Positions 5,448 through 22,567 of a DNA stretch of 33,214 nucleotides are shown here, in pieces. The DNA is taken from contig JAADDM010000271.1 of assembly GCA_013153955.1 (NCBI GenBank), forward strand, positions 1-33,214, read 5' to 3'. Positions within the stretch are counted from its first letter, which is position 1. Each line of letters begins with the position of its first letter. The notes under the pieces were generated by a model. That model did no database searches and was not told the origin of the DNA. It saw only the letters and a program-made list of their open reading frames with translations. Source of the DNA: Gammaproteobacteria bacterium. Lineage in GTDB: Bacteria; Pseudomonadota; Gammaproteobacteria; Thiomicrospirales; Thiomicrospiraceae. Made by a program: the position numbers and the translations under genes.

Positions 5448-5698
5448 GCAACTGAATCATCTAAAACAGCTTCTAGTTCTTCAGCAATAGAGACTTCAAT
5501 TTTGCCATCCGGATCAATAATTTTTTTGTAGCCATCTACTGATACAAGCATGTCTTCGATTAAGCTCTTAGAAGCAATCGTTGCTTTACGCCCTAGGATT
5601 TTAATGGTTGCTTTAAATGTCAGAATCTCACCAGATTCATTTTCAATTGGTACGGTAATTACGGTAGTTCGGTTAGAGTTTAGCTTTAACTTTGTCAT
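5360..5698 (-). CDS. Tail assembly chaperone, gpG-like
   Basis: 112-aa ORF between tail tube and tape measure; overlaps the downstream ORF in the -1 frame with an in-frame slippery heptamer (see 5411-5417). Confidence 0.75.
   Translation of the reverse strand: MTKLKLNSNRTTVITVPIENESGEILTFKATIKILGRKATIASKSLIEDMLVSVDGYKKIIDPDGKIEVSIAEELEAVLDDSVACMLIMQAFNMGNEKLLKKSRTYTEQLET
5411..5417 (-). promoter_or_regulatory. Programmed -1 ribosomal frameshift slippery sequence G GGA AAC
   Basis: Minus strand reads aat atG GGA AAC gag aag in the zero frame of 5360-5698; slipping -1 gives GGG AAA cga gaa gct, which is the frame of 5019-5447. Confidence 0.85.
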
Positions 5699-5753
5699 CT
5701 CTTAATTTCCCTTTAAATACTGTTTAATGAATCTTTAAATTCGATTAATACTT

Positions 5754-5800
5754 AGTTTAAACAGTCTGGTAAAAGAGTTAATTTCAAGGGTTTGAGAAGG
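5754..5800 (-). promoter_or_regulatory. Putative activator-dependent late promoter, copy 1 (tail chaperone/tape measure block)
   Basis: CCTTCTCAAACCCTTGAAA (plus 5782-5800), then exactly 22 nt, then TAAACT (plus 5754-5759), upstream of ATG 5698. Confidence 0.7.
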
Positions 5801-5813
5801 TTTCTGTAGATAT

Positions 5814-5840
5814 AAAAAAGCCTCCAAGAAAGGAGGCTTT
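5814..5840 (-). terminator. Rho-independent terminator after the tail tube gene
   Basis: Minus strand AAAGCCTCC TTTCTT GGAGGCTTTTTTATA: 9-bp perfect stem, 6-nt loop, T-run; 20 nt beyond the stop of the 5861-6802 ORF. Confidence 0.9.
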
Positions 5841-5860
5841 GGCGTGTCGTACTGCTAATT

Positions 5861-6802
5861 TTATAACTGAGTAAGGATCAAGTCATTGTTACGTGCATTT
5901 GGAACAATGTCTGCAACCACATTACAGTATGCAAACTCACCGTCCCAGTTAACATCTGAAGTTTTAACTTGGATTTGAGGGACATCAATTTTTAGCTTCT
6001 GTCCAGCAACTAAGCCTTGCTGATAAATAAAGTCACCCAATGCATTTGTGCTGGCATTATCAATGGCATCTACTAAAGACTGCTCTTGTGTTCTAAAACT
6101 AATAGAAACTGAGCCGTTGCGTGACTCTATTGCAACTTCTTCTGCATCGACGTCGTCCAAGTGTTTAACACCAATACCGACATCGACAGTGAGCTTACTC
6201 ATTGCAACTTCTACGCCCAAAAACTTACAGCTGGTGACCGACTCGCTTGTTACGCCCACAGGCAATTTATAAGCAGAGTCATCCACGCCAGTCATATCTG
6301 TTAATTCAATCGTTGGTTTTTTATATAAGCTAATTAAATCAAATTTAACACTGGGAATTGAACCTTTATCCAGGTTAAATACCAACTTACCACGGGTACC
6401 TGCTAAAATTTGCTGTAGTTTCCCAATGCGATAATACAGCGTGGCGCTCGTAAAGCCCGCATCAATAGGTGTATAGCTTACCGTATGGTTGACAGCGTCA
6501 ATGACCTGAGCAAATCCGCATATTTTTAACAAAGCAGCCCAAGCTGGAGCAAAATCAGGGTCACCTGATCCTGCGAATTCAACTCCAAAACTTGAAGTGG
6601 TTCGACGAGAGGTTGTAATGGAGCCTTGAGCACCCATTCGACCGTTAATGTTGTTACGAGTAGCAGTGTCTGCTTCAAGCATCTTTACACTCATATCTTG
6701 CGCTAAAATTACATTTGCGCCAGTTGGGTTAGCATCGATGCCGTAGGATACTTCTTCTTTGATAACGAGCACTTGTTGTTGTTTTCGTAAAAGTTCAGCC
6801 AT
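5861..6802 (-). CDS. Phage tail tube protein (siphovirus major tail protein)
   Basis: 313-aa ORF; MAELLRKQQQVLVIKEEVSYGIDANPTGANVILAQDMSV start is typical of tail tube proteins; followed by a strong terminator and by chaperones/tape measure. Confidence 0.75.
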   Translation of the reverse strand: MAELLRKQQQVLVIKEEVSYGIDANPTGANVILAQDMSVKMLEADTATRNNINGRMGAQGSITTSRRTTSSFGVEFAGSGDPDFAPAWAALLKICGFAQVIDAVNHTVSYTPIDAGFTSATLYYRIGKLQQILAGTRGKLVFNLDKGSIPSVKFDLISLYKKPTIELTDMTGVDDSAYKLPVGVTSESVTSCKFLGVEVAMSKLTVDVGIGVKHLDDVDAEEVAIESRNGSVSISFRTQEQSLVDAIDNASTNALGDFIYQQGLVAGQKLKIDVPQIQVKTSDVNWDGEFAYCNVVADIVPNARNNDLILTQL

Positions 6803-6805
6803 GAC

Positions 6806-6970
6806 TTACTCCTTTGCCTTTTCGACTTCTTCAGACTTATTAATAGCCTTACCATCTTGAATAATGTAATCGCCACCAGTGTGAACATTTTTTAAAGCAT
6901 CGTTACGCGTTTTTTCTGCTTGCTCAAGTTTTTTTAGTTCCACTTCAGCAGCTTTTTTTCTGGGTGTCAT
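6806..6970 (-). CDS. Small hypothetical protein (54 aa), position of Mu gp38-type small connector gene
   Basis: MTPRKKAAEVELKKLEQAEKTRNDALKNVHTGGDYIIQDGKAINKSEEVEKAKE; overlaps the stop of 6967-7407 and ends 3 nt before the tail tube ATG. Not in the supplied ORF track because it is short. Confidence 0.65.
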   Translation of the reverse strand: MTPRKKAAEVELKKLEQAEKTRNDALKNVHTGGDYIIQDGKAINKSEEVEKAKE

Positions 6971-7407
6971 AAGAGACTCTCCTTAGTTATGATGTGTGCG
7001 GTTTGAAAGCGCTCTACCCAAAAAACCGCATTATTTGAAAAACGTAAAAGCTCTGCTCCAGCTAGGGTAAAAGCCTCATGGCCAACTTCAGGAACCATTC
7101 CAAATAACGCTTGTCTAACGGCTAATCGTTGGTTTTCTAGCTTTTCGACAGAATTGGAACCTGTTGGGTCGTTATGACTTCTAATACCGATCAGAACTGC
7201 ATACACTTGTGGTTCACGCTGAATTGGAGAACCTATATCCCTGATGTTTGGGTCTGGATTAGCGAGTAATTCAATGACCCATGCTTGTGCATCTCCGACA
7301 ATTATTTGCTTTTTTAAATCGGGTACACCAAGCGCAAGATCAACCCCTGAAAATGTATTAGCTTGCTTGAGGGCATCAATAATGATGTTTTGAATTGCTA
7401 AACTCAT
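6967..7407 (-). CDS. Mu gp37-like head-tail joining protein
   Basis: 146 aa; gene order after a DUF1320/gp36-like protein; sequence style (IIIDALKQAN...VYAVLIGIRSHND) fits gp37/tail terminator-like proteins. Confidence 0.6.
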   Translation of the reverse strand: MSLAIQNIIIDALKQANTFSGVDLALGVPDLKKQIIVGDAQAWVIELLANPDPNIRDIGSPIQREPQVYAVLIGIRSHNDPTGSNSVEKLENQRLAVRQALFGMVPEVGHEAFTLAGAELLRFSNNAVFWVERFQTAHIITKESLL

Positions 7408-7416
7408 TGTTAATCC

Positions 7417-7836
7417 TTAAATAAAACCTTTAGACCTTCTACGATCCCAGACAGGTTTTGAGCTTGTCATCTGCGAGAGAGACTCTGACTGATTAGCACG
7501 TTCACCTGTTGTTGAAACACCCAACTGAACAATTCCTTTTGAAACATCCGCTAGATATTTAATGGCATCTTTATGAGCTTTCTCTACAGATTCAGTCATC
7601 TGATCGTTATACAAATAGTATCTGGCCACACTACATGCCGTACGCGCTAATACAGTTGGCACAGTGGTAAGAGGAAGCTTGTAACGACTACCAAGATAGG
7701 AATCAATTAATGAGCCAGCATCAATCATTGCTTGGTCTAAAACAGTCTCATCGATGATAGCTTGACCAGGGGACGTTAAATTAATAATCTCCTGTTCACC
7801 GAACCTGGCAACCATGTCAGCTACAGTGCAATACAT
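7417..7836 (-). CDS. Mu gp36-like protein (DUF1320)
   Basis: MYCTVADMVARFGEQEIINLTSP...AMIDAGSLIDSYLGSRYKLPL...CSVARYYLY is characteristic of the DUF1320 family. Confidence 0.9.
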   Translation of the reverse strand: MYCTVADMVARFGEQEIINLTSPGQAIIDETVLDQAMIDAGSLIDSYLGSRYKLPLTTVPTVLARTACSVARYYLYNDQMTESVEKAHKDAIKYLADVSKGIVQLGVSTTGERANQSESLSQMTSSKPVWDRRRSKGFI

Positions 7837-8318
7837 TAGCTTTCAGAACCTGAATTATCATCTTTAGACTCATTACTTGAGTCGGTGTTTTGATCTAATA
7901 ACTCAGCCTGTTGCGCTACATAAAGATCAAAAGCTTCATCGCGTAGAGCCGCGGTAACATAGACTCCTGCAGCGCCTTCTAAGGCCTTAACTTGTGGTTT
8001 TCCATCGCCAGTCCAGTTACCAGCTATATCGATGTTTAGCAAAGCGATATGCTCGACAAGATCAGCGGCTGAAATGTCTGGTGTATCGGTTTCTGAATCA
8101 GACTGTTGTTGTACAACGGTGTTTTGACCTACTAAAAATAGCGGAGCACCTTTTTCGATAACTTTCGTTACAACTAAATTAGGCTCTGAATTTAGAGCTA
8201 TAATTTGTTCTTCAGATAAATCTTTAGCGTTTAATGTGACTTCCGTTTGTGAAAATGATAATCCAGCTCGACGAAAGTGTCGGGGAATTGAACGAACTCT
8301 TAATTTTTTTTGTGACAT
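7836..8318 (-). CDS. Mu gp35-like (HI1506-related) protein
   Basis: KKLRVRSIPRHFRRAGLSFSQTEVTLNAKDLSEEQIIALNSEPNLVV matches the gp35-like family pattern. Start trimmed from 8339 to the internal ATG at 8318 (MSQKKLRVRS). Confidence 0.75.
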   Translation of the reverse strand: MSQKKLRVRSIPRHFRRAGLSFSQTEVTLNAKDLSEEQIIALNSEPNLVVTKVIEKGAPLFLVGQNTVVQQQSDSETDTPDISAADLVEHIALLNIDIAGNWTGDGKPQVKALEGAAGVYVTAALRDEAFDLYVAQQAELLDQNTDSSNESKDDNSGSES

Positions 8319-8344
8319 GGTTGTGTCCTCGGTCAACAAATTAA

Positions 8345-8371
8345 CCCTGGTACCAGATTAGGTGACCAGGG
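8345..8371 (-). terminator. Intergenic hairpin after the major capsid gene (possible attenuator)
   Basis: CCCTGGT (8345-8351) / ACCAGGG (8365-8371), 7-bp perfect stem in the gap between capsid stop (8391) and the next gene start. Confidence 0.4.
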
Positions 8372-8390
8372 GAGTGGGGGAGAGGGAGGT

Positions 8391-9296
8391 TTAAGTAGTA
8401 CCGTCTGATCCGTAAGCTAACTGCCAAAACGCATAGCCACCGCTCATACGTGCTTCGGCACCAAATAAGAATTTTCGAGAGTTAAATACGGACTCGTTAT
8501 CCATCGACGTTTGACTAACTAATACAGGAGCTTTACGTTCTTGTAGGATGTATGGCAGTACCGTTTTTGAAGTATCTAATAGGAACCAAGCTGTGTCAGA
8601 TGTCAGCCCAGGCATTACGACAACTTCTGCTGTGCCTTTGTAGATGTTTATTGAGCCATCTGGCAACTTGTCTGATGTCATTAATACGTTGGCCGTATCT
8701 TCTAATGCAGGCGGCACTAACAGCACATTTGGATTAACACGTAAAGAGCGACCTTCATCATCTTTAAACTCACGCATCGCTGTTCGTGCAGCACCGTAAG
8801 AAGCGGCTGCGGTTGCGGCAGTCGACGCATCTAACTTGGATGTACCCTTGTTAGAAACAGAGGCGCCATTTACTTCGTGATCAGTATCTAAGAAGAATTG
8901 ACCGTCATAACACTTACTGTCAAAACTACGATTCACGAGTTCTTCAATAATTTCTTCAGGTAAATTTTTAGCAGATTCACCAGCTCCTGCTGCTTCAATG
9001 GCTAGACCACCAATTTGCCCATCTTCAACATCATTACGATCAACTTCAATCGTTACTTCAAAGTCGTCATTTTTAATGGTGTATTCAAATGCTTCTAATG
9101 ACTTGATGTGCTTATTACCCACCCATTTACGCATTTTCGGAAACTTACTTAACCACTTGTAGTTGTTTTCAGCGCCTGTGGATTGCACTTTCATCGCAAT
9201 TTTTGGCCATACCGTTTTAGTGGCTGTAAAAGCCTTGTTAAATGCGAGTTTTAAATTTTTAAAAATCTCGTCTAAGTTCGCTTTATTGACAATCAT
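8391..9296 (-). CDS. Major capsid protein (Mu gpT-like)
   Basis: 301 aa; N-terminus MIVNKANLDEIFKNLKLAFNKAFTATKTVWPKIAMKVQSTGAENNYKWL is typical of the Mu gpT family. Confidence 0.92.
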   Translation of the reverse strand: MIVNKANLDEIFKNLKLAFNKAFTATKTVWPKIAMKVQSTGAENNYKWLSKFPKMRKWVGNKHIKSLEAFEYTIKNDDFEVTIEVDRNDVEDGQIGGLAIEAAGAGESAKNLPEEIIEELVNRSFDSKCYDGQFFLDTDHEVNGASVSNKGTSKLDASTAATAAASYGAARTAMREFKDDEGRSLRVNPNVLLVPPALEDTANVLMTSDKLPDGSINIYKGTAEVVVMPGLTSDTAWFLLDTSKTVLPYILQERKAPVLVSQTSMDNESVFNSRKFLFGAEARMSGGYAFWQLAYGSDGTT

Positions 9297-9351
9297 TTGA
9301 TTCTCCTAATCGTCTTTTTAAATAAAAATGGTTGTGTTTGATAAACGTGGG

Positions 9352-9747
9352 TTATTCGACCCAAACACCGTCTGAGTCAATTCCTACGACAATGCCTGCT
9401 GCTGAACGGGTACCTGCACCATCCGTGGCTGCCAAAGTTTCATCATCAACGATGTAGCACTCCTTGCCAAAGTTGACCTGAGTGATTGAACCGTCGTTTT
9501 TAAACTGAAAGGCACGTTTACGCATAATCGTGATTTCTGTCGCACCATCGATGCCCGACGTGTTATCAACTGCTTCTTCAGCACGGCCTAAATATGTCAA
9601 GCCTGTTGCTGTAGAGCCAGCCTCGGCAAAACCTGTCGCGCTGGCAACAACTAAAGCACCTGCGTGGATGTATGCTCCAGCAGCCATTGCAATCACAATG
9701 GCATTGGCTTTTTGTGAGGCTGTATTTCTATCTTGTGTTAAAGCCAT
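9352..9747 (-). CDS. Head decoration/structural protein (DUF2190-like position)
   Basis: 131 aa, Ala/Gly-rich (MALTQDRNTASQKANAIVIAMAAGAYIHAGALVVASATGFAEAGS), between protease and major capsid. Confidence 0.55.
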   Translation of the reverse strand: MALTQDRNTASQKANAIVIAMAAGAYIHAGALVVASATGFAEAGSTATGLTYLGRAEEAVDNTSGIDGATEITIMRKRAFQFKNDGSITQVNFGKECYIVDDETLAATDGAGTRSAAGIVVGIDSDGVWVE

Positions 9748-9793
9748 CTTGTTCTCCTTAGATGAGGTTTTTAATTAAAGTATCAAACTCTGT

Positions 9794-10876
9794 TTAAGCG
9801 CTTACTTGATGATCTTCATCTGAAAAGCCAAATGAAGCTCGAATCTGCTTTTGATCTGCTGTAAGTGCTGCGACATGTGATTTAGGGGCAGGGTCATCAC
9901 CTGATGACTGTTGAGTACCTAATGCACTGATTGGTGTAGCATTTTCGATAAAGTTTGTCAGTGCTGCCATATCACTATTACCTAAGCTGGTTGCCCATGC
10001 TTGTTGCGCTGGCAAAAGATGGCCAGATGCCAAAGCATTATCAACGGTCGTTGTTACAGATGATGACGCCTGCTTATTTGTTAGCGCTACAACTTGTGCT
10101 TGCAACTCGGCTACCATTGAAACTGGTGCATATTCAGAAGGGTCAGGAGTAGATACTGCTTCAACTTTAGCTGTTAAAGCAACAATGGACGCTTGCGCTT
10201 CTGTATTCGCAGATTGAAGAGCCGTTAAAGCCGCAAGCGCTTCTTCTTCGGTTGTGTTTTCGGGCATGTTTAGCGCAATGAGCAGTGTCTTCAAGTCCAT
10301 TGGATTGTCCTCAGGTTGATTAGATTGATTGGTAAGCTGCTGAAAGTTTTCGAGCGTTAATTTGGCAAGGTTCTCCATGCCATCTATCGCTGGATGGTTT
10401 GTGATTGCAGCCATAATAATGTCAAGTACGTGCCCAGTTTTAGGGTCGTAAATCATGACGGGAGAGATGTAGCGGTATTCGCCATCCAAAATCATGCGTT
10501 CGGCAGTAGGTGTCCAGGTGACATTAGTCGCCCACAGACCTGATTCACGCCATTGCAATTTTGAAAACCAACCCGCAGCAGGGGCCGGTTGGCCGTTTTG
10601 TTCTTTTAAGAGAGTTTGGTGTTCGTAATCGATGACTCGATCATTTGAGTAACTCGTGTATTCAATGAGCTTTTTAGCAATAGACTCATCGATAAACCAG
10701 CCGTCCGTTAGGTCAACAGGGCGGCCATCTTTGGCTTTAAAGAAACCAACAGGGGTCAGTTGGATTTCGTTTGGGGCTTTTTGGTTTTCAACAATTAAGT
10801 TGATAGATAGCGCAGCGACCGCAACAGGTTGCGATGGGCTAGATGTTTTGGAATATTGGGGTGTTTTTGTTTTCAT
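9794..10876 (-). CDS. Mu gpI-like prohead protease/scaffold
   Basis: 360 aa; IQLTPVGFFKAKDGRPVDLTDGWFIDE...VIDYEHQTLLKEQNGQPAPAAGWFSKL...GEYRYISPVMIYDPKTGHVLDIIMAAITNHPAIDGM is characteristic of the Mu I protease family; Gln/Ala-rich C-terminal scaffold region. Confidence 0.92.
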   Translation of the reverse strand: MKTKTPQYSKTSSPSQPVAVAALSINLIVENQKAPNEIQLTPVGFFKAKDGRPVDLTDGWFIDESIAKKLIEYTSYSNDRVIDYEHQTLLKEQNGQPAPAAGWFSKLQWRESGLWATNVTWTPTAERMILDGEYRYISPVMIYDPKTGHVLDIIMAAITNHPAIDGMENLAKLTLENFQQLTNQSNQPEDNPMDLKTLLIALNMPENTTEEEALAALTALQSANTEAQASIVALTAKVEAVSTPDPSEYAPVSMVAELQAQVVALTNKQASSSVTTTVDNALASGHLLPAQQAWATSLGNSDMAALTNFIENATPISALGTQQSSGDDPAPKSHVAALTADQKQIRASFGFSDEDHQVSA

Positions 10877-10896
10877 GCCTCAAGTGTAGAGGCATG
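10874..10896 (-). promoter_or_regulatory. Perfect hairpin enclosing the protease start codon
   Basis: Minus strand CATGCCTC TACACTT GAGGCATG: 8-bp perfect stem whose 3' arm ends in the AUG of the 9794-10876 ORF. Confidence 0.5.
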
Positions 10897-10929
10897 GTGA
10901 TTAGAGGTGATTTCAAGCGTTTGAGAAGG
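10883..10929 (-). promoter_or_regulatory. Putative activator-dependent late promoter, copy 2 (protease/capsid block)
   Basis: CCTTCTCAAACGCTTGAAA (plus 10911-10929), 22 nt, TACACT (plus 10883-10888), then 6 nt to ATG 10876. Confidence 0.75.
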
Positions 10930-10931
10930 TT

Positions 10932-12956
10932 TTAGCTTGCTTCTTCAAGATCATCTATCTGCACTGATTCTGTGTACTGAGCATATTTTTCTTTTAAAAA
11001 ACGCAGACTATCTTCTTGTGAGGCATTTATATCTAGATGTTTTTTAAGAAAATCAAGGCGATGACTGGCTTGAGCAAAAAGCATTGACCATGTTACAGCT
11101 TTTATTTTATATGACATGTTTCCAACTGTATTTTGTTCAATTAAGCCTGAGCTATCATTTTTCAACTTTGATCTAACAAAGTTGTCTGAAGCGTAATCAT
11201 CACCAATAATCCAAAATTCCCAAGTACTTTTTACAGTTTTAAACCTAGGATCGTTAACTATCGCGATTTGATAATCCTCGACTTGTCTGTATTGTTTTTG
11301 TCCGATATGTTCTGTAGGCCTTTTTAGCTCTATCACAAGATAGCTGATTTCATCAGGTTTAGAATTCCCTAAAGATCTTGTTAACATTAAATCAACAATA
11401 CCGTTAGTGCCATCAATTCTTTTAACTGGTTTATCAATAACAACATCAGTTATATTTCTACTTTTAAGGTGTCCTTCCAACACTTTTGTGAGTGATTGAT
11501 CATTAACCGTAAGAGTAAACTGTTCGCCGAAAATCCAAGTATTGTCGGCCAAAATTTTGTGAAGTTGTGATCTCTCTTTGATGTGTTTGGCAATATCTTT
11601 ATCGTAAATTAACTCTTTAAGGGCAGTAATAAATTTAATTCGATCTGAAACTTCCTTAGAGGTCTTAATCATATTAGACAGAGATGATTCTTCTAGCAGT
11701 TGTGCTAGTTCTTTTTGTTGGTTTTCAGGTAAATCTAGAACTTCCTTGAAAATTCGTTTTAGTGTTGTGTCACCGCTTTCAATTGCTTGTCTAAGCATGT
11801 GCAATTGAAATTTTTTAGTTTTAGGGGCCTCGTCATTAAAACCTGGCAAACTTTCTGTAACGGTAATGGCAAGAATATCAAATAACTCTTGCTCTGCTTT
11901 TTCGACAGGGGCTAGGCCTTCATGAGTTTTTAATATCTCATCTGCGGAATAGGGATATATACCTGCACTGCGCCAATCTTCAAAAATAGTCTTGTGGTCT
12001 TCCAGTTTTCTCTGCTTAAAATGTTCTTTAAGAGTCTTGATTGCCTCTTCAATATTTCTATTCACGTCATTACTTAGCCCACTTAGGCTGAGTAAGTTTT
12101 GATGGTTTAAAACTCTAAATAGATCAGATGAAAGGTAGGCTGTATAGGAATAATCACCGATACTTCTAATCTGCTTATCATATTCTTGAAGTGGTACTTC
12201 GTCTTTGGAGCAAAGCCATACTTCTTTATGGCTACCAATTTCGGCAGCCCATTCAACTATTTTTAGTGACAAGGGATATTTTGAACCTTCATATTCGATA
12301 TCATCTAACTCGATATCTATTTCGTCTGCTATATATAGTGACGGGTCTATACGAGTGCCATTAATGGTTAAGTTGATATCAGAATGGTTCTTTAGATAGA
12401 GAGAGAAAACAGGAGCAATTTTTTGAATCAATTTTGTAGGGTCTTCTAGGAATTCAAACTGTTTGAATAACTCATCCACCACAACAGTGACGCCAGTTGG
12501 TGAGCTTTTTTTATTATGTTCATCAAACTCAAAGTCAGTTGGGTTGTCGGCTTTTCCAGAGATTTTAAATGAGAATGTATCATCAGATTTATCTTTGTAA
12601 GTTGACGTCCAATTCATTACTCGCCCTAAAGCATAACCTTTAAACCTTCCATGTCCTTCACTGCCATGTAACTTTCTACCTAAGAGAGTGGTGTGTGTGT
12701 TTTTTTTCCAAGATGCACCTAGGTTTCCAAAAAGAAGTTCTTTTTTGCCCCAATTGATCCCTGTTCCATTATCTGTAATGACAATTTTTTTATCGCCAGG
12801 TAAAAGACCTGATGATGGAAATGTAACAGTAACAATTTTTGAATCAGCATCAAGAGCATTCCAAATCATCTCACAGATGGCTTTATCAGGCTGTGCACGC
12901 TTGATTTTATTCATATAGTCATTAGTGATTTGTACTTTTACGATATTTGAAGTCAT
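10932..12956 (-). CDS. GHKL-type ATPase fused to a C-terminal PD-(D/E)XK-like nuclease domain; probable cargo/defence gene
   Basis: 674 aa. N-box CEMIWNALDADS, G1 ITDNGTGI, G2 GSEGHGRFKGYALG (HSP90/MutL/MORC-like ATPase fold). C-terminal GIVDLMLTRSLGNSKPDEISYLVIELKRP fits D-(X)n-(E)XK nuclease core. Not part of the Mu core gene set. Confidence 0.8.
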   Translation of the reverse strand: MTSNIVKVQITNDYMNKIKRAQPDKAICEMIWNALDADSKIVTVTFPSSGLLPGDKKIVITDNGTGINWGKKELLFGNLGASWKKNTHTTLLGRKLHGSEGHGRFKGYALGRVMNWTSTYKDKSDDTFSFKISGKADNPTDFEFDEHNKKSSPTGVTVVVDELFKQFEFLEDPTKLIQKIAPVFSLYLKNHSDINLTINGTRIDPSLYIADEIDIELDDIEYEGSKYPLSLKIVEWAAEIGSHKEVWLCSKDEVPLQEYDKQIRSIGDYSYTAYLSSDLFRVLNHQNLLSLSGLSNDVNRNIEEAIKTLKEHFKQRKLEDHKTIFEDWRSAGIYPYSADEILKTHEGLAPVEKAEQELFDILAITVTESLPGFNDEAPKTKKFQLHMLRQAIESGDTTLKRIFKEVLDLPENQQKELAQLLEESSLSNMIKTSKEVSDRIKFITALKELIYDKDIAKHIKERSQLHKILADNTWIFGEQFTLTVNDQSLTKVLEGHLKSRNITDVVIDKPVKRIDGTNGIVDLMLTRSLGNSKPDEISYLVIELKRPTEHIGQKQYRQVEDYQIAIVNDPRFKTVKSTWEFWIIGDDYASDNFVRSKLKNDSSGLIEQNTVGNMSYKIKAVTWSMLFAQASHRLDFLKKHLDINASQEDSLRFLKEKYAQYTESVQIDDLEEAS

Positions 12957-13137
12957 TTAAAAATCTGCCTTAGCGTTTGATATTGGTAATACTACTGCAT
13001 TATCAGCCCAACCTCTACTCAATAGATGCGCTAAACACCGTTTAAATTTTCCAGTAAACGTTTAAGTCTTTTTAATCTATGGCAATGTATAGGTTCTGCA
13101 CTAAAGCCGCTGTATGGGCTTTATTTTCGTAGTAGGT

Positions 13138-13593
13138 TTAATCAAATGCAAGGGACAAATGATCTGCAACTATGTCGAGTATATCTGTTTCATCTTTTGG
13201 CGTCAGACCAAGAAAAGGTCGAGATGGGATGCCGCTTGGTTTGTTGAAACTTCCTGCGTCTGAACCAAACTGATGGATGGCTGCATATTTACGATCGGAA
13301 CCAAACTCCAAACCTTTCCCTCCATTGACGAGTTGGTAGGTTAATTCTCGAAATAAATCACCTGATTCAATAAGCACATTATCTTTGTTTCGTTTTTTAC
13401 GTTTAACGGTTAGATATTTTAGTGGGGTGAACTTTTGACCATGTATATCATTGCCTGCTGTTAACCTATCGCGAGTATTATTGAGCAGAATCTCTCCCAT
13501 ATCTAAAAACACAGGCTCTAAACTTGTAGTAAGCTGGTTTAATTCACTAAAGGCTTGTGTAACTTGTGTTAAATCTACCTTTACGCCGGCCAT
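13138..13593 (-). CDS. Phage virion morphogenesis protein (Mu gpG-like)
   Basis: 151 aa; ILLNNTRDRLTAGNDIHGQKFTPLKYLTVKRKKRNKDNVLIESGDLFRELTYQ...GSDRKYAAIHQFG is characteristic of this family. Confidence 0.92.
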   Translation of the reverse strand: MAGVKVDLTQVTQAFSELNQLTTSLEPVFLDMGEILLNNTRDRLTAGNDIHGQKFTPLKYLTVKRKKRNKDNVLIESGDLFRELTYQLVNGGKGLEFGSDRKYAAIHQFGSDAGSFNKPSGIPSRPFLGLTPKDETDILDIVADHLSLAFD

Positions 13594-13713
13594 TTGTTTT
13601 CCTTTTACTTATGTATTAAAATGGAGTTCTTGGGTTGATTAGCTGAAGCACACTTCAATAGCTATGAAAACTTGCCCGCGCTGTGTGTAGCGAGTGAGGG
13701 CTTTCTATTTCGT

Positions 13714-14946
13714 CTACTCTTCTTCTACAATCTTCCCGTATATCAACTTTCCATTTCTCTGACGATTTATATACTTTAAATCTGATGTTGGAATCATTGT
13801 CCAAGATTCTAAAATACCTTTATTTGCTTGTGCGCTGATAAGTAGAACTTTACCTCGGCCGATATCAAATGCTTTAACAATTCTGGTGCGTAGCGCGACT
13901 TTACCTGTCGCTTGATGTTCGTCAAAGTTCATCCATACTTCAAATGGGTCCTCTAAGGTATCTAGTAAAAGTGGTAAATAAATAGATCTATTAGGATCTA
14001 AATGTTCCGCTAAACTTTGTGCATTGACCAAAACCGGCAGGCCTTTTACATCAATAATTCTTTCAGTAGCACCTAATTGAGATTCAATTAATAGCGCCAT
14101 TTCAGCCACTGTTAGTCCCTTATCGGTTAATGACTGCTTGGGTTGAGCAAGTGGCAATTTTCTTGGACGACCTAATTGTTGGTAATCATGTTTAATAATG
14201 GATTGCCAAACCTTTGCGCCTGATGCTTTAAAATCGGCCATAGCTGTTTCGCTAAGCTGCTGACCCCATGCTGCTTTTCCAGGATTGTAAGCAAAACCAG
14301 CATCAACTCCGTCTGTGACTTGTATGACTCTTGGATTGGTGGTCACCCCAATCGTTTTATCTGTCCACTCTACTTTTGGAGAGTTTGCCAAGGTTAGGCC
14401 TTGAGCATCCAGTTCTCGCTGTGAGAGAGTTTTAGCGTAACATTGACAACCCCAACCATTGGGCGGGTAATGCGTATTCCACCAAGGATCATCTACAGAC
14501 AACACCATACCGTGCCAACCTAAGTGCTGAGGGCGTGCGTTTTCGACTGCAATAGAGTGCTGATATTGCAAGTATGGGCGAGTTCGTTTGACAGCTTGCA
14601 TTTGCTGGTAACGGCCTGCGGCGTAGGCCATTCTTGTATTTGTTTCGTAGATTATTCTTGAGCGCCAATTTCGACCTCCGTTATAACTCCAACCATGTTT
14701 TTTGACAGTTGCATCAAAGTCTTTTCTAAAGTCTTCAAGCGTGCTGCCACCTTCAACAGCTTTGAGTACTGCCGATTGAAAGTCTGCTAATATTTCATCT
14801 TGTATTGCACCAGCAACCACAAATGCTTTTGCATGCTGTACTTGCCAAATATCCGCATAAGTTTCTGTAGGAAGGGCGAGTTTATTTTTAACAAAGTCAA
14901 TTTTTTGCTTAAAAATGATTGAACCGTACTGTGTTTTACTTGCCAT
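13714..14946 (-). CDS. Phage head morphogenesis protein (Mu gp30/F-like)
   Basis: 410 aa; RSRIIYETNTRMAYAAGRYQQMQAVKRTRPYLQYQHSIAVENARPQHLGWHGMVLSVDDPWWNTHYPPNGWGCQCYAKTLS is the diagnostic minor head protein signature. Confidence 0.95.
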   Translation of the reverse strand: MASKTQYGSIIFKQKIDFVKNKLALPTETYADIWQVQHAKAFVVAGAIQDEILADFQSAVLKAVEGGSTLEDFRKDFDATVKKHGWSYNGGRNWRSRIIYETNTRMAYAAGRYQQMQAVKRTRPYLQYQHSIAVENARPQHLGWHGMVLSVDDPWWNTHYPPNGWGCQCYAKTLSQRELDAQGLTLANSPKVEWTDKTIGVTTNPRVIQVTDGVDAGFAYNPGKAAWGQQLSETAMADFKASGAKVWQSIIKHDYQQLGRPRKLPLAQPKQSLTDKGLTVAEMALLIESQLGATERIIDVKGLPVLVNAQSLAEHLDPNRSIYLPLLLDTLEDPFEVWMNFDEHQATGKVALRTRIVKAFDIGRGKVLLISAQANKGILESWTMIPTSDLKYINRQRNGKLIYGKIVEEE

Positions 14947-14969
14947 GTTAAAGCCTTGTTAAATCTAAT

Positions 14970-16601
14970 TTAAAGCACATTTAAGGCTTCATCTAATACG
15001 TCGCTTCGACCTTGTAACTCTGCTAATACCATCGCTTGTTCAATTAACTCAGCTTGCTTTGACTTGTTTTGGCCAGCGAGTGCTAACAGGTCATTCTTTA
15101 GCTGTTCAAAGCTCTCTGCCTTATTGACTAAATCCCGAATTTTATCAACAAACTCTGTTTGTGGGTTATCACTCTCGACCTGTAATTGATGAGAGATAAT
15201 ATCTGATGGGGTTTTCTGAACAGGATCTTCTACAGTCGTCTCTGCGGTTAATACAGCAACTGACTGACAACCTGAACAACTACAGCCTTGATGGTGTTTT
15301 TCAGCGGTTAAAGTGGCAGTATCAGCCCCGACAATCGGCTTTAGAATGTCACTCTCATCTTCAGGCAATGGGATTTGTGTGCTTTCATGTAGCCATTTTC
15401 GTGAAATTTTCATACCGCTTTTCTGTAACCCAGGTAAGGCTTCAGACAGCAACTTAATATCCCCAGCTTCAGCTGTGTTAAAAACAAATTTAGGACAACG
15501 GTGAAAGCTACTGATGCCATTTAAGTTAAATACGACCATAGGCCACAGAAGGTCGCGAGTAAGTGTGTTGGCGATCTGGCGTAAGTCTGCATCACGAATA
15601 TCGTGTCGCACTTCATTGTGAACATTGCCCAATGCGTTGGTGCTACTAGTACCATCGGCCTGACTCGTTAGCGTCGCTCCTAAGATTGCTTTTGAAACGG
15701 TTTTTTCTGCCCAAGCCACCATTGCTAAAAATGGGTCGGCTTGGCCTTTAGCAGCTTCTTTAAAGTCTAGGGTCATACTCTCAGGAATAATCCCAGCGGC
15801 ATTGTGACCAATCTCTACAACGGCTTGTAGTAGTCGTCCTTTCTCTTGCTCAGTTGCACCAGACGGGTATTTCCCTAAACGCAGCGGCAAGCCATAAATC
15901 TCTAAAAACTCGGCTAGATCGCGAAGAGAATAGTTTTTAAATAGATATGGCCAGGCTAAGGTTCGTACTAGGCCAGAGCGCCCTAAATAACCGCTCTTTG
16001 ATTTATGGTGGTGCATAATCCACCCACCAGCCCAGAGGGCTTGTCCTTGACCTGTATCGTCTATTAGTTGCAACTTATTACGATCATCATTAGCTGTCGT
16101 GAACCAGGACGCAGGCACATGCTCAATCGCAATAGGCATTTGCATTTTTTCGACAAGTTGCCACTTTATTGTTTGAGCACTATAGCCTTTTAAAATGCCG
16201 TCAGACATATCAAGAATAACCTCGGCCATGTCAATATTTGCTAGACGCTCAGTTAAAACTTCTGCGGCCTTTTTCTCAACGATATTCGCATTGTATGGAG
16301 GTTCAATTTGCCATTTCACTGTTGTAAGGGCTAACTTACGCTTTTGCATCTCTGCAAATAGGTGTCCATCTTTTTCTTCCATATCGGCTGCAAGCTCGGC
16401 TTGATCAGTCAATTGGTGTCGTTCTGCATCTTGTAATATATTGGCAAGCCTATAGGGTGTCAGACCACTAGACGGGTGCTGGTCGAAACGCTGATGCAAA
16501 CTACCGAGCTTGGCGCTATCAATTTGAGTTTCTTGAACAGCTAATGGCTCAAAGGGCAGGCCTGTTCTTGGGTCGAGTATTTTAGTCATCTTATTTACCA
16601 T
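14970..16601 (-). CDS. Portal protein (Mu gp29-like, DUF935)
   Basis: 543 aa; LTPYRLANILQDAERHQLTDQAELAADMEEKDGHLFAEMQKRKLALTTVKWQIEPP matches DUF935 portal proteins. Includes a CSCSGC cysteine cluster near residue 425. Confidence 0.95.
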   Translation of the reverse strand: MVNKMTKILDPRTGLPFEPLAVQETQIDSAKLGSLHQRFDQHPSSGLTPYRLANILQDAERHQLTDQAELAADMEEKDGHLFAEMQKRKLALTTVKWQIEPPYNANIVEKKAAEVLTERLANIDMAEVILDMSDGILKGYSAQTIKWQLVEKMQMPIAIEHVPASWFTTANDDRNKLQLIDDTGQGQALWAGGWIMHHHKSKSGYLGRSGLVRTLAWPYLFKNYSLRDLAEFLEIYGLPLRLGKYPSGATEQEKGRLLQAVVEIGHNAAGIIPESMTLDFKEAAKGQADPFLAMVAWAEKTVSKAILGATLTSQADGTSSTNALGNVHNEVRHDIRDADLRQIANTLTRDLLWPMVVFNLNGISSFHRCPKFVFNTAEAGDIKLLSEALPGLQKSGMKISRKWLHESTQIPLPEDESDILKPIVGADTATLTAEKHHQGCSCSGCQSVAVLTAETTVEDPVQKTPSDIISHQLQVESDNPQTEFVDKIRDLVNKAESFEQLKNDLLALAGQNKSKQAELIEQAMVLAELQGRSDVLDEALNVL

Positions 16602-18154
16602 GCACCTTGTTTGCTAAAGTGGTTATTGTTTTCAGTGCTCAAGCCCATGTCACGAGTGAGTCGATTGTCGTTTAAATTCTTGGGAACAGCTGTCCAATCG
16701 GCTTCCCAGAAATCCTGAGTACTTGCGCTGTACCCGAGGGCGATAGCGATAGCCGCATCACCGTGTCGGCCTTTTTGTGTTTGCCCATCGGGTACTTTTG
16801 GAATACCTTTAACCAGCTGAATAGCACGTAGATCATTAAGAACATCCGCATCTTTGGGGATGGATATTTCATCATCATCAAAGGCTGATTTCATCTTTGG
16901 CATATTGTCCAAGTACCATCTTTGAGAGAGCATGACCTCTTGAATTCGACCAGAACCATATTTAAACTTAGCCTGTTCTGCCATATATTGGCCGTTACCA
17001 CGCGCATCTAAAGCACCGCCGATTAATCTAGGTAGGCGGTCGACAATGTAGTTAAGTATTTGCTCTTGAGAAGTAAACGGCATGTTTTTCAGTTCAACCA
17101 AAAACGGCACTTGACGCTTAAGATTCTGATTGATTGCAACGGGAGCAATGACCGTTAAATCACCTGAACGGGCAAAATCTTCACCAAAAGCGTGTTGCTC
17201 ATCAGGGTTGAGTTTTTGTAGTTCGGGTAGAAGTACTGCTTGACACCAGTCGGCTATTTCGGCTTGACGTAAATGGAGTGGCCAAGTGTTAAATTCAGCA
17301 GAACCCTCGTAACGAATAACTACGCCTTCGACCATTCTGGATTCAATTAAGGCTCGGCTTAGATAAGCACCACCGCCTTTCTTAGGAACGCAGTAGTATT
17401 CTTCTAGGGCATCGTCTTCTGTTGCTGTATCTTTGAGCAGATTGGCTGTCCATTCTTCTTCAGATAGCTGTGACCACTCGATGTTTCTCATTTGGCATAT
17501 ACGTTTGTAAAGCCCTTTCTCACGTGCATCATCTAGCGTAATGCGGTGTACCGAATAACGCTTTTTGCCTGCGCGAGAATCTTGAATGAGTTCATTAAAA
17601 ATACTGTCCCAGCCGTTGTGGGTTGAGATAATACGAACTTTAGCGCCCCACATAGTGAGTGCTAGGGCGGCTTTAAGTACTTCGGCAAGGCGTTCGTGAA
17701 AGGCCGCTTCATCAATGGTGACATTCCCTTGGCGACCACGTAGGTTTGACGGATTGGAGCTGAGTGCTTGAATTTTGAAGCCACTGGCAAATTTAATATT
17801 AAAAATGAGAATATCTTTATTCTCATCTATAAATATCTCTTCTTCAATTTTTCCACCTGCTTTATTGAATGCTTTTGCCCACATCGCACAGGCGTCGATA
17901 AACTCAATGGCCATCTCTTTATTGGAACCAATGTAGTAGTGATTGGTACCGCCCGCAGATTTTTTTGAACTTGCGGTTAAAACTGCATCGGCTGCCTCTG
18001 CCCAGGTAAGTCCTGTACGACGTGATTTTTCAGCTATTTTTAGCGGTGAATCGTCTTCAATCCAGTCTTTTTGATAGCTTAGAAGGAGATCATTAGCGTT
18101 GTAACCATCTTCATTTAATACAGATTTAACGCTTAAATCGGTTTCTGTTGACAT
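16595..18154 (-). CDS. Terminase large subunit (Mu gp28-like)
   Basis: 519 aa; LLSYQKDWIEDDSPLKIAEKSRRTGLTWAEAADAVL (Walker A-like), GRQGNVTIDEAAFHE (Walker B), FGEDFARSGDLTVIAPV nuclease core. Confidence 0.95.
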   Translation of the reverse strand: MSTETDLSVKSVLNEDGYNANDLLLSYQKDWIEDDSPLKIAEKSRRTGLTWAEAADAVLTASSKKSAGGTNHYYIGSNKEMAIEFIDACAMWAKAFNKAGGKIEEEIFIDENKDILIFNIKFASGFKIQALSSNPSNLRGRQGNVTIDEAAFHERLAEVLKAALALTMWGAKVRIISTHNGWDSIFNELIQDSRAGKKRYSVHRITLDDAREKGLYKRICQMRNIEWSQLSEEEWTANLLKDTATEDDALEEYYCVPKKGGGAYLSRALIESRMVEGVVIRYEGSAEFNTWPLHLRQAEIADWCQAVLLPELQKLNPDEQHAFGEDFARSGDLTVIAPVAINQNLKRQVPFLVELKNMPFTSQEQILNYIVDRLPRLIGGALDARGNGQYMAEQAKFKYGSGRIQEVMLSQRWYLDNMPKMKSAFDDDEISIPKDADVLNDLRAIQLVKGIPKVPDGQTQKGRHGDAAIAIALGYSASTQDFWEADWTAVPKNLNDNRLTRDMGLSTENNNHFSKQGAW

Positions 18155-18178
18155 GATTCACCTGTGTTTTGCATGGCA

Positions 18179-18757
18179 CTAAGTAGTTTGAATGCCTAAA
18201 ATTTGGTTTTTAATTTCTGTGACCGCTTGCTGGCTTAGTCCATTTGCCTTACCAACGGAGGCTGCGGTTTCAGCAGCAGCTTCTGTTGCACGTGCACGCT
18301 CTTGTTTACGAATCTCTTCATCACGCTTTAGATTGTCTGTAGCAGAGGCTTCTAAACGCTGCACTGCTAAAGCAAGCTGAGAGAGTAGCTTTGGACTGGC
18401 TGGTTCCTCGTTTTCGGCAATACTCATAGTGGTTTCAAAAGCAAGAGTACGGATGATCTCATTCAGCAATTTACCTGTTTCACCTTGCGGCTGAGAGCCA
18501 AGTTTACCTATCCACATCTTTGCCATCTCGCGACTTTGTGTAAGGCGTTCGCCAACTTTTTGCATACGCATTGAGTAGCGATTAACTGCGCTTTTTGACA
18601 CCGACTCATCATGACCCTGCGCCTCTAAAATGGCATTAATTTGCTCAGTGGCCTCTAACTGGGTGATGCGTGGGTCTCGCAGTAAGCTTTGAAGTGCTTC
18701 GAGGATATCTGGAGGGAGTCGTTCAACACTGGATTTACGTGCCACAATAGCCCCCAT
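18179..18757 (-). CDS. Mu gp27-like protein (DUF3486, small terminase position)
   Basis: ARKSSVERLPPDILEALQSLLRDPRITQLEATEQINAILEAQG...KSAVNRYSMRMQKVGERLTQSREMAKMWIGKLG is characteristic of DUF3486. Start adjusted to the internal ATG (MGAIVARKSS). Confidence 0.92.
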   Translation of the reverse strand: MGAIVARKSSVERLPPDILEALQSLLRDPRITQLEATEQINAILEAQGHDESVSKSAVNRYSMRMQKVGERLTQSREMAKMWIGKLGSQPQGETGKLLNEIIRTLAFETTMSIAENEEPASPKLLSQLALAVQRLEASATDNLKRDEEIRKQERARATEAAAETAASVGKANGLSQQAVTEIKNQILGIQTT

Positions 18758-18947
18758 TGAAACATGCAAAGAGTAGCCAACCTGCGATAAATAATGCGGA
18801 TAAGACCCAGTTAAAGGTCTCTTTCATAAACTCTTTATAAGCTTTTTTTTGTTCCATCTTCTGCTGTGCGAGTGTTGTACGACGTTGTCGCCACATATAA
18901 TCGTGTTGCTGTTCTAGAGTTCGATTTTTTTGCGTTAATTTCCTCAT
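18735..18947 (-). CDS. Small single-TM protein (possible lysis accessory)
   Basis: 70 aa with a charged N-terminal half and C-terminal hydrophobic helix FNWVLSALFIAGWLLFACFNGG; overlaps neighbouring starts/stops in the operon. Confidence 0.6.
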   Translation of the reverse strand: MRKLTQKNRTLEQQHDYMWRQRRTTLAQQKMEQKKAYKEFMKETFNWVLSALFIAGWLLFACFNGGYCGT

Positions 18948-18949
18948 GA

Positions 18950-19240
18950 TTAAAGTCCTTTTCTGGCGATGCCCGGCACTTGTGCCGCGCCCGTAGCGAC
19001 ATCTTGGCCTCGTGCAGTTAAGCGGGCGACTCGAATCTCTCCGACAAGCTCAACGGTAATTAATGACAGCTCTTCAAGCCAGGCAAGTTCAGAATTGAGT
19101 TTGTCTGTAGATAGGTTATGGCCAAGAGACTTGAGGGCTGATTTTAAAATCAGTTCATTGTGCGAGTAATCAGAATCCTTTTCTAAGACTTCAATAATGA
19201 CGCGGCGTTGGTGAAGTGTCTCTTGCTGTTTAAAATCCAT
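18950..19240 (-). CDS. Winged-helix/ArsR-like small phage protein (VpaChn25_0724-type)
   Basis: 96 aa; QQETLHQRRVIIEVLEKDSDYSHNELILKSALKSLGHNLSTDKLNSELAWLEELSLITVE...VARLTARGQDVATG resembles the conserved small protein of Mu-like phages. Confidence 0.75.
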   Translation of the reverse strand: MDFKQQETLHQRRVIIEVLEKDSDYSHNELILKSALKSLGHNLSTDKLNSELAWLEELSLITVELVGEIRVARLTARGQDVATGAAQVPGIARKGL

Positions 19241-19578
19241 TATCTTTTACCTTTGTTAATCATGTAATCATGCATTCTCTTGACTGCTTCAGAGGTTTGT
19301 TTAAACTCCCCTGATAGCTGACTGACTTCTCTACTGATACCGTTGAGACGTTTGTGAACGTCATTGATTTCTTGATTATGATCTGGCTTTTCTTCAAGTC
19401 TGATTACACGGTCTTTAATATCTTCAAACCCACTGTTTACATGTTTTTCAAAGCTATCTATACGCTTTTCATTAACTTGAGATTTACGCGTTACCGCGAC
19501 ATAAACGAACAACGCTAAGGTTGCAAAAATTTGAATAACACTTAACCAAAATTTGGCGGCTTCGTAATCAAGTTCCAT
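19240..19578 (-). CDS. DUF2730-like membrane-anchored coiled-coil protein
   Basis: 112 aa; N-terminal TM helix followed by coiled coil; conserved position upstream of gp27/gp28 in Mu-like phages. Confidence 0.65.
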   Translation of the reverse strand: MELDYEAAKFWLSVIQIFATLALFVYVAVTRKSQVNEKRIDSFEKHVNSGFEDIKDRVIRLEEKPDHNQEINDVHKRLNGISREVSQLSGEFKQTSEAVKRMHDYMINKGKR

Positions 19579-19594
19579 TTTAAAAAATAGCCTC

Positions 19595-20149
19595 TTAATG
19601 GCGCTTTACAGGGCGAGAACCAAACCACCAAGTAACAGAGGTTGTGGCTAGAAAAATACAGGTATTAATGACTTCTTTAAGTAAATACTGTGCTGTGGCA
19701 CTCCCAACCATTTGTCCAGTTATTTGAAAGAGCTGGTATGTAATGAGCGCCATTAATAATGCAAAGTAAACGGTTAAAGCAGGGCGCATTAAACCGCGTA
19801 TCGTATCGACCAAGCCACCACCATATGCAGTTTTATCATTTGCATAACTTTGTGTACGTAAGTCCATTTCTGCTAACTCAACATCTGCTGCAGCTTGGGT
19901 TTCTGTTGCTAGACGATCTTGTTCAGCTACGGCGATATCTCGATTGGCGTTGGCTTCTGTCTCCTTCATTTTGAACTGATGCTCAAGCGACATCTCTTCA
20001 CGATCCGCTTTACGCATTGCAATGTCATAAGCAAATTTAGCTTGCTCAGCTTTATGACTCGCCCACATTTTTGCACCTACACCAAAAAGGCCTAATATAC
20101 CGCCTGATGCGGCTGCGCCAAATGCGCCTAAAACTGTGCTTACGTCCAT
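19595..20149 (-). CDS. Membrane protein, holin-like position
   Basis: 184 aa; N-terminal hydrophobic segment (GAFGAAASGGILGLFGVG), coiled coil, two C-terminal TM segments; directly follows the DUF5675-like gene. Confidence 0.5.
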   Translation of the reverse strand: MDVSTVLGAFGAAASGGILGLFGVGAKMWASHKAEQAKFAYDIAMRKADREEMSLEHQFKMKETEANANRDIAVAEQDRLATETQAAADVELAEMDLRTQSYANDKTAYGGGLVDTIRGLMRPALTVYFALLMALITYQLFQITGQMVGSATAQYLLKEVINTCIFLATTSVTWWFGSRPVKRH

Positions 20150-20664
20150 TAGAGTATCTCCAGGTAAAAGTTTTGTCGGTTTGTGATAGCGTGAATTTTG
20201 TGTAGTGCACCGCGTGATGCGAGGCCTGCGAGTTGGCCGTATAACATGCCCAAACGCGTAGCAGGCAGTAAACAGCCCCAGCTATGCGTTTTAAAGCCTT
20301 TAAATTTGTCACCTGCCACATTTCCTGCATGAGTTAAAACGCCGCTACGACTGGGTACTTTTGTGACGTGATAAACGTCTCTGTATTTACCTGACGCTGA
20401 GCGTTTTAGGTATTTAACAAGGTACATCCCTGGTGGAATTCGGCTTATATTACGGGCGTTGTTACGATCGGGTAGCTCCATCATGTAGCAGACTCGTCGC
20501 TCATTAAACATAAGTCGACCTGTCGTACCGTGATCGGTTGATGGCGCACGATAGAGTTGGAGAGTTTTAAGTGAGCAATGGTTGCATAATGCGCTCTTAA
20601 CCACCGTTTTAATGGCAGTTTTGAGTTTATTATGGGGTGACTTTAGGGGGTTAATTACTTTCAT
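20149..20664 (-). CDS. DUF5675-like protein (putative lysis-module protein)
   Basis: 171 aa; LQLYRAPSTDHGTTGRLMFNERRVCYMMELPDRNNARNISRIPPGMYLVKYLKRS...DVYHVTKVPSRSGVLTHAGNVAGD...SWGCLLPA fits DUF5675. Confidence 0.75.
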   Translation of the reverse strand: MKVINPLKSPHNKLKTAIKTVVKSALCNHCSLKTLQLYRAPSTDHGTTGRLMFNERRVCYMMELPDRNNARNISRIPPGMYLVKYLKRSASGKYRDVYHVTKVPSRSGVLTHAGNVAGDKFKGFKTHSWGCLLPATRLGMLYGQLAGLASRGALHKIHAITNRQNFYLEIL

Positions 20665-20670
20665 ACCTCT

Positions 20671-20717
20671 AGAATAGAGGGTTTTACGATAGGGTGAGTT
20701 TCAAGTGTTTGAGAAGG
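20671..20717 (-). promoter_or_regulatory. Putative activator-dependent late promoter, copy 3 (lysis/terminase block)
   Basis: CCTTCTCAAACACTTGAAA (plus 20699-20717), 22 nt, TATTCT (plus 20671-20676), then 6 nt to ATG 20664. Confidence 0.75.
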
Positions 20718-22111: not shown

Positions 22112-22567
22112 TTAGTCCTGAAATAAGGAGGGTTGTATTTTGTTGTGTCGAATACGATGTTGATTAGCAAGTGCTGTTCTAATCGTCATTTCTGATACTC
22201 TGAATTTCTTGGCTAATATTTGGTGATTATTACCGGTAAACGCCTTCCAAATTTTAATATCTCGTATGGCTCGCTCTAGTTTCTGATTATGGGGAAGGTA
22301 GAAGCTAACGCCACCAAAATGGTTGGCAATAGCAGTAACCAGTACTGCGGAAAGTTTGTTATTCTGTTCGTCTTGTATCTCTCCAACTGTTGATAGGCAG
22401 TGGCTTAGAATTTCATAAAATTCAACTAACCGAGCAGGCCAGAGTAACTTTAAGTCTTCCATATCTAAGTCAGTAAGGTTTTCGAGCATCTCATCCATTG
22501 TGGCAGTAAAGTGATCGCCAAATAGGTCTTTACTTGCCTCGTTATAGGGCTCTATTGAATTATTCAT
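22112..22567 (-). CDS. mor: Mor-family transcription activator
   Basis: Minus strand start MNNSIEPYNEASKDLFGDHF at 22567 (ATGAATAA overlap with upstream stop); C-terminal IANHFGGVSFYLPHNQKLERAIRDIKIWKAFTGNNHQILAKKFRVSEMTIRTALANQHRIRHNKIQPSLF is the Mor HTH signature. Confidence 0.9.
   Translation of the reverse strand: MNNSIEPYNEASKDLFGDHFTATMDEMLENLTDLDMEDLKLLWPARLVEFYEILSHCLSTVGEIQDEQNNKLSAVLVTAIANHFGGVSFYLPHNQKLERAIRDIKIWKAFTGNNHQILAKKFRVSEMTIRTALANQHRIRHNKIQPSLFQD

Follow-up and report, generated by a model that had tools for sequence, protein, structure and literature searches.

Among phages, mRNAs that begin directly at an AUG are known from lambda, whose PRM-cI transcript is leaderless, and late control in the satellite P4 runs through promoters that respond to Ogr/Delta. 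In phage Mu, there are four distributed late promoters that depend on C, namely, lys, I, P, and mom (PMC4461284; AF083977 annotation), and Mor acts at Pm, not at the late promoters (AF083977). Phage T4 has late promoters inside hairpins that sequester the ribosome binding site (RBS) of I-TevI, I-TevII, I-TevIII, and segB, and the RBSs of e and soc are likewise sequestered (PMC2988022). Here we analyze three repeated sites in contig JAADDM010000271.1, a stretch of 33,214 nucleotides that we call the window. The host assembly is that of a marine bacterium of the genus Thiomicrorhabdus, and the contig is a Mu-like prophage that encodes MuA, MuB, and GemA (these three named from sequence and position), Mor, terminase, portal, I-type protease, gpT capsid, tail tube, and tape measure proteins. 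As judged from the sequence, the three sites are probably Mor/C-type, activator-dependent late promoters, and two of them, those for lysis and for the protease, are predicted to give leaderless mRNAs and to carry a hairpin lock.

Probable promoter sites in the window and in related phages

The pattern CCTTCTCAAACNCTTGAAA-N22-TANNCT occurs exactly three times in the window, always on the minus strand, with no further occurrence of CCTTCTCAAACNCTTGAAA at up to three mismatches, and a search of the whole 2.04-Mb host assembly found none beyond these three. That the window has so few copies would suit repeats that arose by chance and have no function, an explanation that we regard as negligible; it is contradicted by dinucleotide shuffles, which put the chance expectation of CCTTCTCAAACNCTTGAAA in the window at 0.08 and reached three copies in 0 of 100 trials, and by the recurrence of the sites at orthologous places in phages that have diverged, as described below. 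An earlier note on this DNA had listed the coordinates, the 22-nucleotide spacers, and the hexamers TAAACT, TACACT, and TATTCT, all of which we reproduced, and had described a dyad with an odd centre at a single N. The dyad is better described with an even centre, because relatives carry the perfect form TATCAAG-CC-CTTGATA, and we have rewritten it as T(C/A)TCAA(A/G)-NN-CTTGA(A/T)A. The note's proposal that each copy heads a late block also holds, with DUF5675, lysis, and terminase genes behind copy 3, the Mu I-type protease gene (PF10123) behind copy 2, and tail chaperone and tape measure genes behind copy 1.

With the dyad so described, the operator has its centre near −42.5. The spacer to the −10 is 22 nucleotides in three of three copies and 22 to 23 in relatives, and none of 34 sigma70-like −35/−10 pairs coincides with any of the three sites. 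The position of the operator and the lack of a −35 element imply that these are Mor/C-type late promoters. The suggestion that they depend on an activator is supported at the level of sequence by the missing −35, by an operator near −43, and by the presence of one Mor-family protein per phage.

In general plan, the sites resemble those of Mu. Both sets of late promoters are distributed and have an activator box that lies upstream of or overlaps the −35 region near −43, no useful −35, and a weak TANNCT-like −10; the lysis and protease (I) promoters occupy the same places; and the activator is of the Mor/C family. The late −10s of Mu, read from the annotated promoters of AF083977, include TAGACT, CAAACT, and TATCCT, with boxes near −43. 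The earlier note had spoken of a rewiring of the Mu scheme, a claim that is unsupported because the late promoters of Mu are already distributed, the positions of Plys and PI matching two of the window copies; the window follows Mu's plan. The note had the kind of promoter right but erred over Mu, and it missed the leaderless, hairpin-nested form. There are also differences. The operator sequence of the window is unrelated to that of Mu, its third promoter precedes the tail chaperone gene, whereas that of Mu lies inside N, and it has one Mor-type protein where Mu has a Mor-to-C cascade. Furthermore, its lysis and protease transcripts are predicted to be leaderless and hairpin nested, whereas Mu I has a leader and an annotated RBS. 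The window promoters are a new variety of Mor/C-type late promoters.

Three related Mu-like phages (G059, G020, and G030) have two sites each, one before the DUF5675 gene and one before the protease gene, in which the N22 spacer (N23 once) is followed by TAAACT or TATCCT. A search of the kind that the earlier note had proposed found the design retained at orthologous positions in diverged Mu-like phages. The operator of G059, whose stretch is identical to one in genome G068, is the same as that of the window, and G020 (Thiomicrorhabdus cannonii HH3, a genome of the same genus) and G030 carry the changed operator CTTATCAANCNCTTGATA. A scan of genome contigs with the pattern returned 64 stretches from mostly unrelated taxa, chiefly chance matches, among which T. 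cannonii (found twice) was genuine. G058 matched the motif and was rejected as a relative because it is not Mu-like.

A naive scan of Vibrio martha, HS6, 1.028.O, Pmp9, and Mu for a dyad that recurs with the 22-nucleotide geometry gave no convincing example. When Pmp9 was afterwards read by eye, TTGTYTGAAACTTCACAAAC was seen repeated before the amidase and protease genes. Pmp9 also has a late-type promoter within a terminator-like hairpin ahead of the amidase gene (L158:3000-3038), where late RNA would begin inside the left arm and only read-through RNA would terminate.

The Mor-family protein and an unrelated element with the same operator

A profile search against the PDB matched the Mor-like protein of the window to Mu C and Mor (1rr7, 9l0x, and 9vw8; E≤1e-18). 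Its gene is the only Mor/C-family gene in the host assembly, and each related phage likewise has exactly one, encoding a protein 30 to 46% identical to that of the window; a second Mor/C gene was found neither in the window phage nor in its relatives. With a single Mor/C gene per phage, there is no C gene downstream of mor on which the late promoters could depend as they do in Mu, and we infer that this one protein binds the operators and does the job of C.

It could be argued, from the fact that Mu Mor itself acts at Pm and not at the late promoters, that some other protein, be it a host factor or a repressor of the phage, binds the dyad and that the Mor-like protein has its target elsewhere, perhaps in a middle promoter. 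We consider this improbable, given that no second Mor/C gene was found in these phages, that the geometry is that of C-dependent promoters, and that the Mor gene of an element not otherwise related has an identical operator upstream of it. The exact 18-mer, followed by N23 and TACACT, is present ~80 nucleotides upstream of a Mor gene in the Thiomicrorhabdus genomes G024 and G012. The element in question, ~10 kb long, has a tyrosine integrase and sits beside tRNA-Leu (G024, L050:17330-20000 plus L051:1-6650; G012, L053, with 23-bp direct repeats). Its genes encode the Mor homolog and AlpA-like, SSB-like, Gam-like, RusA, and HicB proteins, and it has no capsid genes. The occurrence of the same operator beside mor in this setting links it to Mor proteins without recourse to the Mu-like gene order. 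The element is possibly a satellite of Mu-like phages. Like P4, it combines a homolog of a phage activator with the same operator, but its activator belongs to a different protein family.

Leaderless register, hairpins, and a predicted translational lock

At copies 2 and 3, TANNCT is followed by exactly 6 nucleotides and then by ATG. A −10 so placed makes the A of the AUG the predicted sigma70 start at the lysis and protease genes, whose mRNAs would have their 5′ end at the AUG and be leaderless. The N termini of the lysis proteins in three relatives start at the predicted leaderless AUG. At PI, the −10 hexamer sits in the loop of a hairpin whose right arm includes the start codon (ATG, 10874-10876), while the Plys hairpin is shorter and overlaps the −10, with the ATG (20662-20664) one base beyond. 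The promoters of the relatives keep the hairpin with altered arms, for example, ACGCTCTA-TCC-TAGAGCGT in G020 and a 16-pair stem, G·U pairs included, that spans the AUG in G030. As the right arm reaches or contains the AUG, read-through RNA would fold over the start codon. The anatomy of a T4-type hairpin-embedded promoter is thus present at copies 2 and 3 and in the relatives and absent at copy 1, where a 9-bp inverted repeat that overlaps the −10 may be due to chance. A search of Rfam gave no match.

To survey Mu-like elements more widely, we gathered PF10123 protease loci from viral contigs, genomes, and phages and reduced them to 86 that were non-redundant, taking as the start codon the most upstream in-frame ATG, picked blind to hairpins. 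A second set, of another protease subfamily, comprised 43 loci non-redundant with the first. The two bases that matter most in a −10, A(−11) and T(−7), stood in the leaderless register in 36 of the 86 loci; counts at other offsets were mostly 0 to 5, apart from one offset with 11 and another, overlapping the fixed T of the ATG, with 12. The second set gave 11 of 43 in register, against 0 to 4 at most other offsets, and several of its protease genes have ordinary Shine-Dalgarno leaders.

We then counted hairpins that ended at the AUG with at least 5 of 6 pairs and a loop of 4 to 12 nucleotides. They were present at 29 of the 86 protease genes (34%) and at 10 of the 194 control genes taken from these loci (5%; Fisher P = 1.5e-9). 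A column test in fixed register gave a weak signal because the loop length varies, and we therefore took the best stem at each locus and compared it with stems made from swapped arms. Exchange of left arms between loci lowered the count in the first set from 29 to 10.8 ± 2.6, implying that the arms match each other beyond any shared consensus. For the two sets pooled, there were 36 hairpins in 129 loci, compared with 13.3 ± 3.0 after swapping.

A blind scan of annotated phages for such starts yielded exactly two each in LPB1 and G131, at the first gene after mor and at the protease gene, and in both phages the two starts share an upstream block. D3112 has this pair as well. In G131, the gene that follows mor was assigned to the lysis region by position only. 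In LPB1 (L200:4998) and D3112 (L201:3750), an unannotated open reading frame of 115 amino acids lies directly after mor and starts from a hairpin-nested, leaderless-type AUG.

Taken together, these features suggest the following scheme. A Mor-family dimer would bind the dyad centred at about −42.5, and host sigma70 polymerase, finding no −35, would open the TANNCT −10 with the help of Mor, so that RNA at Plys and PI would begin at the A of the AUG, 6 nucleotides past the −10. RNA from upstream promoters would carry the left arm, fold, and hide the AUG; RNA from the late promoter would lack the left arm, leaving the AUG free. The late mRNAs would be leaderless, and longer RNA would be subject to a T4-like hairpin lock that, if real, silences the protease/scaffold and lysis proteins on earlier or read-through RNA. 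In this scheme, the copies, their spacing and conservation, the −10/AUG register, and the match of left and right arms beyond swapped controls are seen in the sequence, and Mor binding, the precise start site, and the translational lock are predictions. More tentatively, we extend this to Mu-like phages of the Pseudomonadota, including the D3112/LPB1 group of Pseudomonas aeruginosa; their lysis and protease messages may start at the AUG from hairpin-nested Mor/C-type promoters, with the choice of promoter serving as the translational lock, and the ~10-kb element, if a satellite, could listen to or imitate a helper phage of the Mu-like kind.

Several observations weigh against this scheme. Copy 1 has an ordinary 5′ untranslated region (the next ATG is at 5698) and an upstream terminator instead. 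About two-thirds of the non-redundant protease genes are without such a hairpin, which means that the lock cannot be universal and that the hairpin is frequent, not obligatory. The hairpin signal of the second set alone is modest (7 versus 3.0 ± 1.6). G059 combines the same operator with a rather different Mor recognition helix, so that operator and helix do not track simply. Finally, a strand test of RNA stem against DNA palindrome, based on imperfect stems, gave 8 G·U versus 4 A·C, too few cases to separate the two.

This last result is compatible with a DNA palindrome, and the repeat sits exactly over the −10. The late promoters might accordingly be real and the inverted repeat act as DNA, either as the operator of a second factor or as a cruciform that aids melting. 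We think this unlikely, since the arms vary widely among loci (GCCTC, CCGCC, GCGGCCC, TGGCGC, and GCATACC), unlike a protein operator, and often run into the coding sequence, the 16 pairs over the AUG in G030 being an example. It is even less likely that the hairpin belongs to a longer 5′ untranslated region as an RNA operator at the start codon, similar to that of MS2 coat/replicase and used, for example, in autoregulation by the scaffold, with TANNCT as just its loop. Such an operator would account for an AUG in or adjoining the stem and for the conserved loop positions, but the conserved loop bases, A(−11) and T(−7), are those that sigma70 reads, copy 1 retains operator-N22-TAAACT with no hairpin or AUG there, and the lysis and protease genes have the operator in common at the same spacing.

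The predicted lock resembles T4 in the siting of a late promoter such that folding can conceal the translation start in read-through RNA alone. T4 late transcripts, however, keep a Shine-Dalgarno leader and come from T4's own late promoters, whereas the promoters considered here are of the Mor/C type and their predicted start falls on the AUG. The likeness to lambda PRM-cI is a phage mRNA that begins at the AUG; PRM differs in having neither a Mor/C-type activator box nor a hairpin around the −10. We found no earlier description of the leaderless, hairpin-nested design in the open-access literature searched, which leaves most subscription papers outside it. The analysis suggests that T4 is not alone in embedding late promoters in inhibitory hairpins, this second case being joined to leaderless translation. 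For a large group of Mu-like phages, it also shows where the switch to late expression lies and predicts start sites to the base. D3112-type phages grow in ordinary laboratory hosts, making the prediction quickly testable.

Features of the window and neighbouring genes

Coordinates of the promoter elements, hairpins, and genes discussed in the text
Feature	Position	Strand	Basis
Inverted repeat of 9 bp, ACTGTTTAA (5757-5765) / TTAAACAGT (5719-5727)	5719..5765	−	Sequence
−10 TAAACT, tail promoter (5.8 kb)	5754..5759	−	Sequence
Late operator copy 1, CCTTCTCAAACCCTTGAAA	5782..5800	−	Motif search, sequence
Intrinsic terminator directly upstream of copy 1, AAAGCCTCC-TTTCTT-GGAGGCTTT plus T tract	5817..5840	−	
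Mu I-type capsid protease/scaffold, predicted leaderless	9794..10876	−	PF10123, E=3e-97
PI hairpin, CATGCCTC (10889-10896)-TACACTT-GAGGCATG (10874-10881)	10874..10896	−	RNA fold z = −7.8
−10 TACACT, protease I promoter PI (10.9 kb)	10883..10888	−	Sequence
Late operator copy 2, CCTTCTCAAACGCTTGAAA	10911..10929	−	Motif search, sequence
DUF5675 protein, first lysis-block gene, predicted leaderless	20149..20664	−	PF18925; homologous N termini in relatives
Plys hairpin, CCTCTA-TTC-TAGAGG	20666..20680	−	RNA fold z = −2.3
−10 TATTCT, lysis promoter Plys (20.7 kb)	20671..20676	−	Sequence
Late operator copy 3, CCTTCTCAAACACTTGAAA	20699..20717	−	Motif search, sequence
Mor/C-family activator	22112..22567	−	PF08765, E=4.6e-23; match spans the Mor domain with its C-terminal helix-turn-helix

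The DUF5675 protein of the window has an N-terminal extension of ~30 residues (20574-20664, minus strand) that begins at the leaderless AUG and is missing in the relatives. Between the G and I genes, and ending just before PI, lies a gene (10932-12956, minus strand) for a GHKL ATPase with weak Shedu-like (SduA/DUF4263) similarity, possibly a defence or counter-defence gene. The anti-CRISPR gene of D3112 occupies the same G-I slot.

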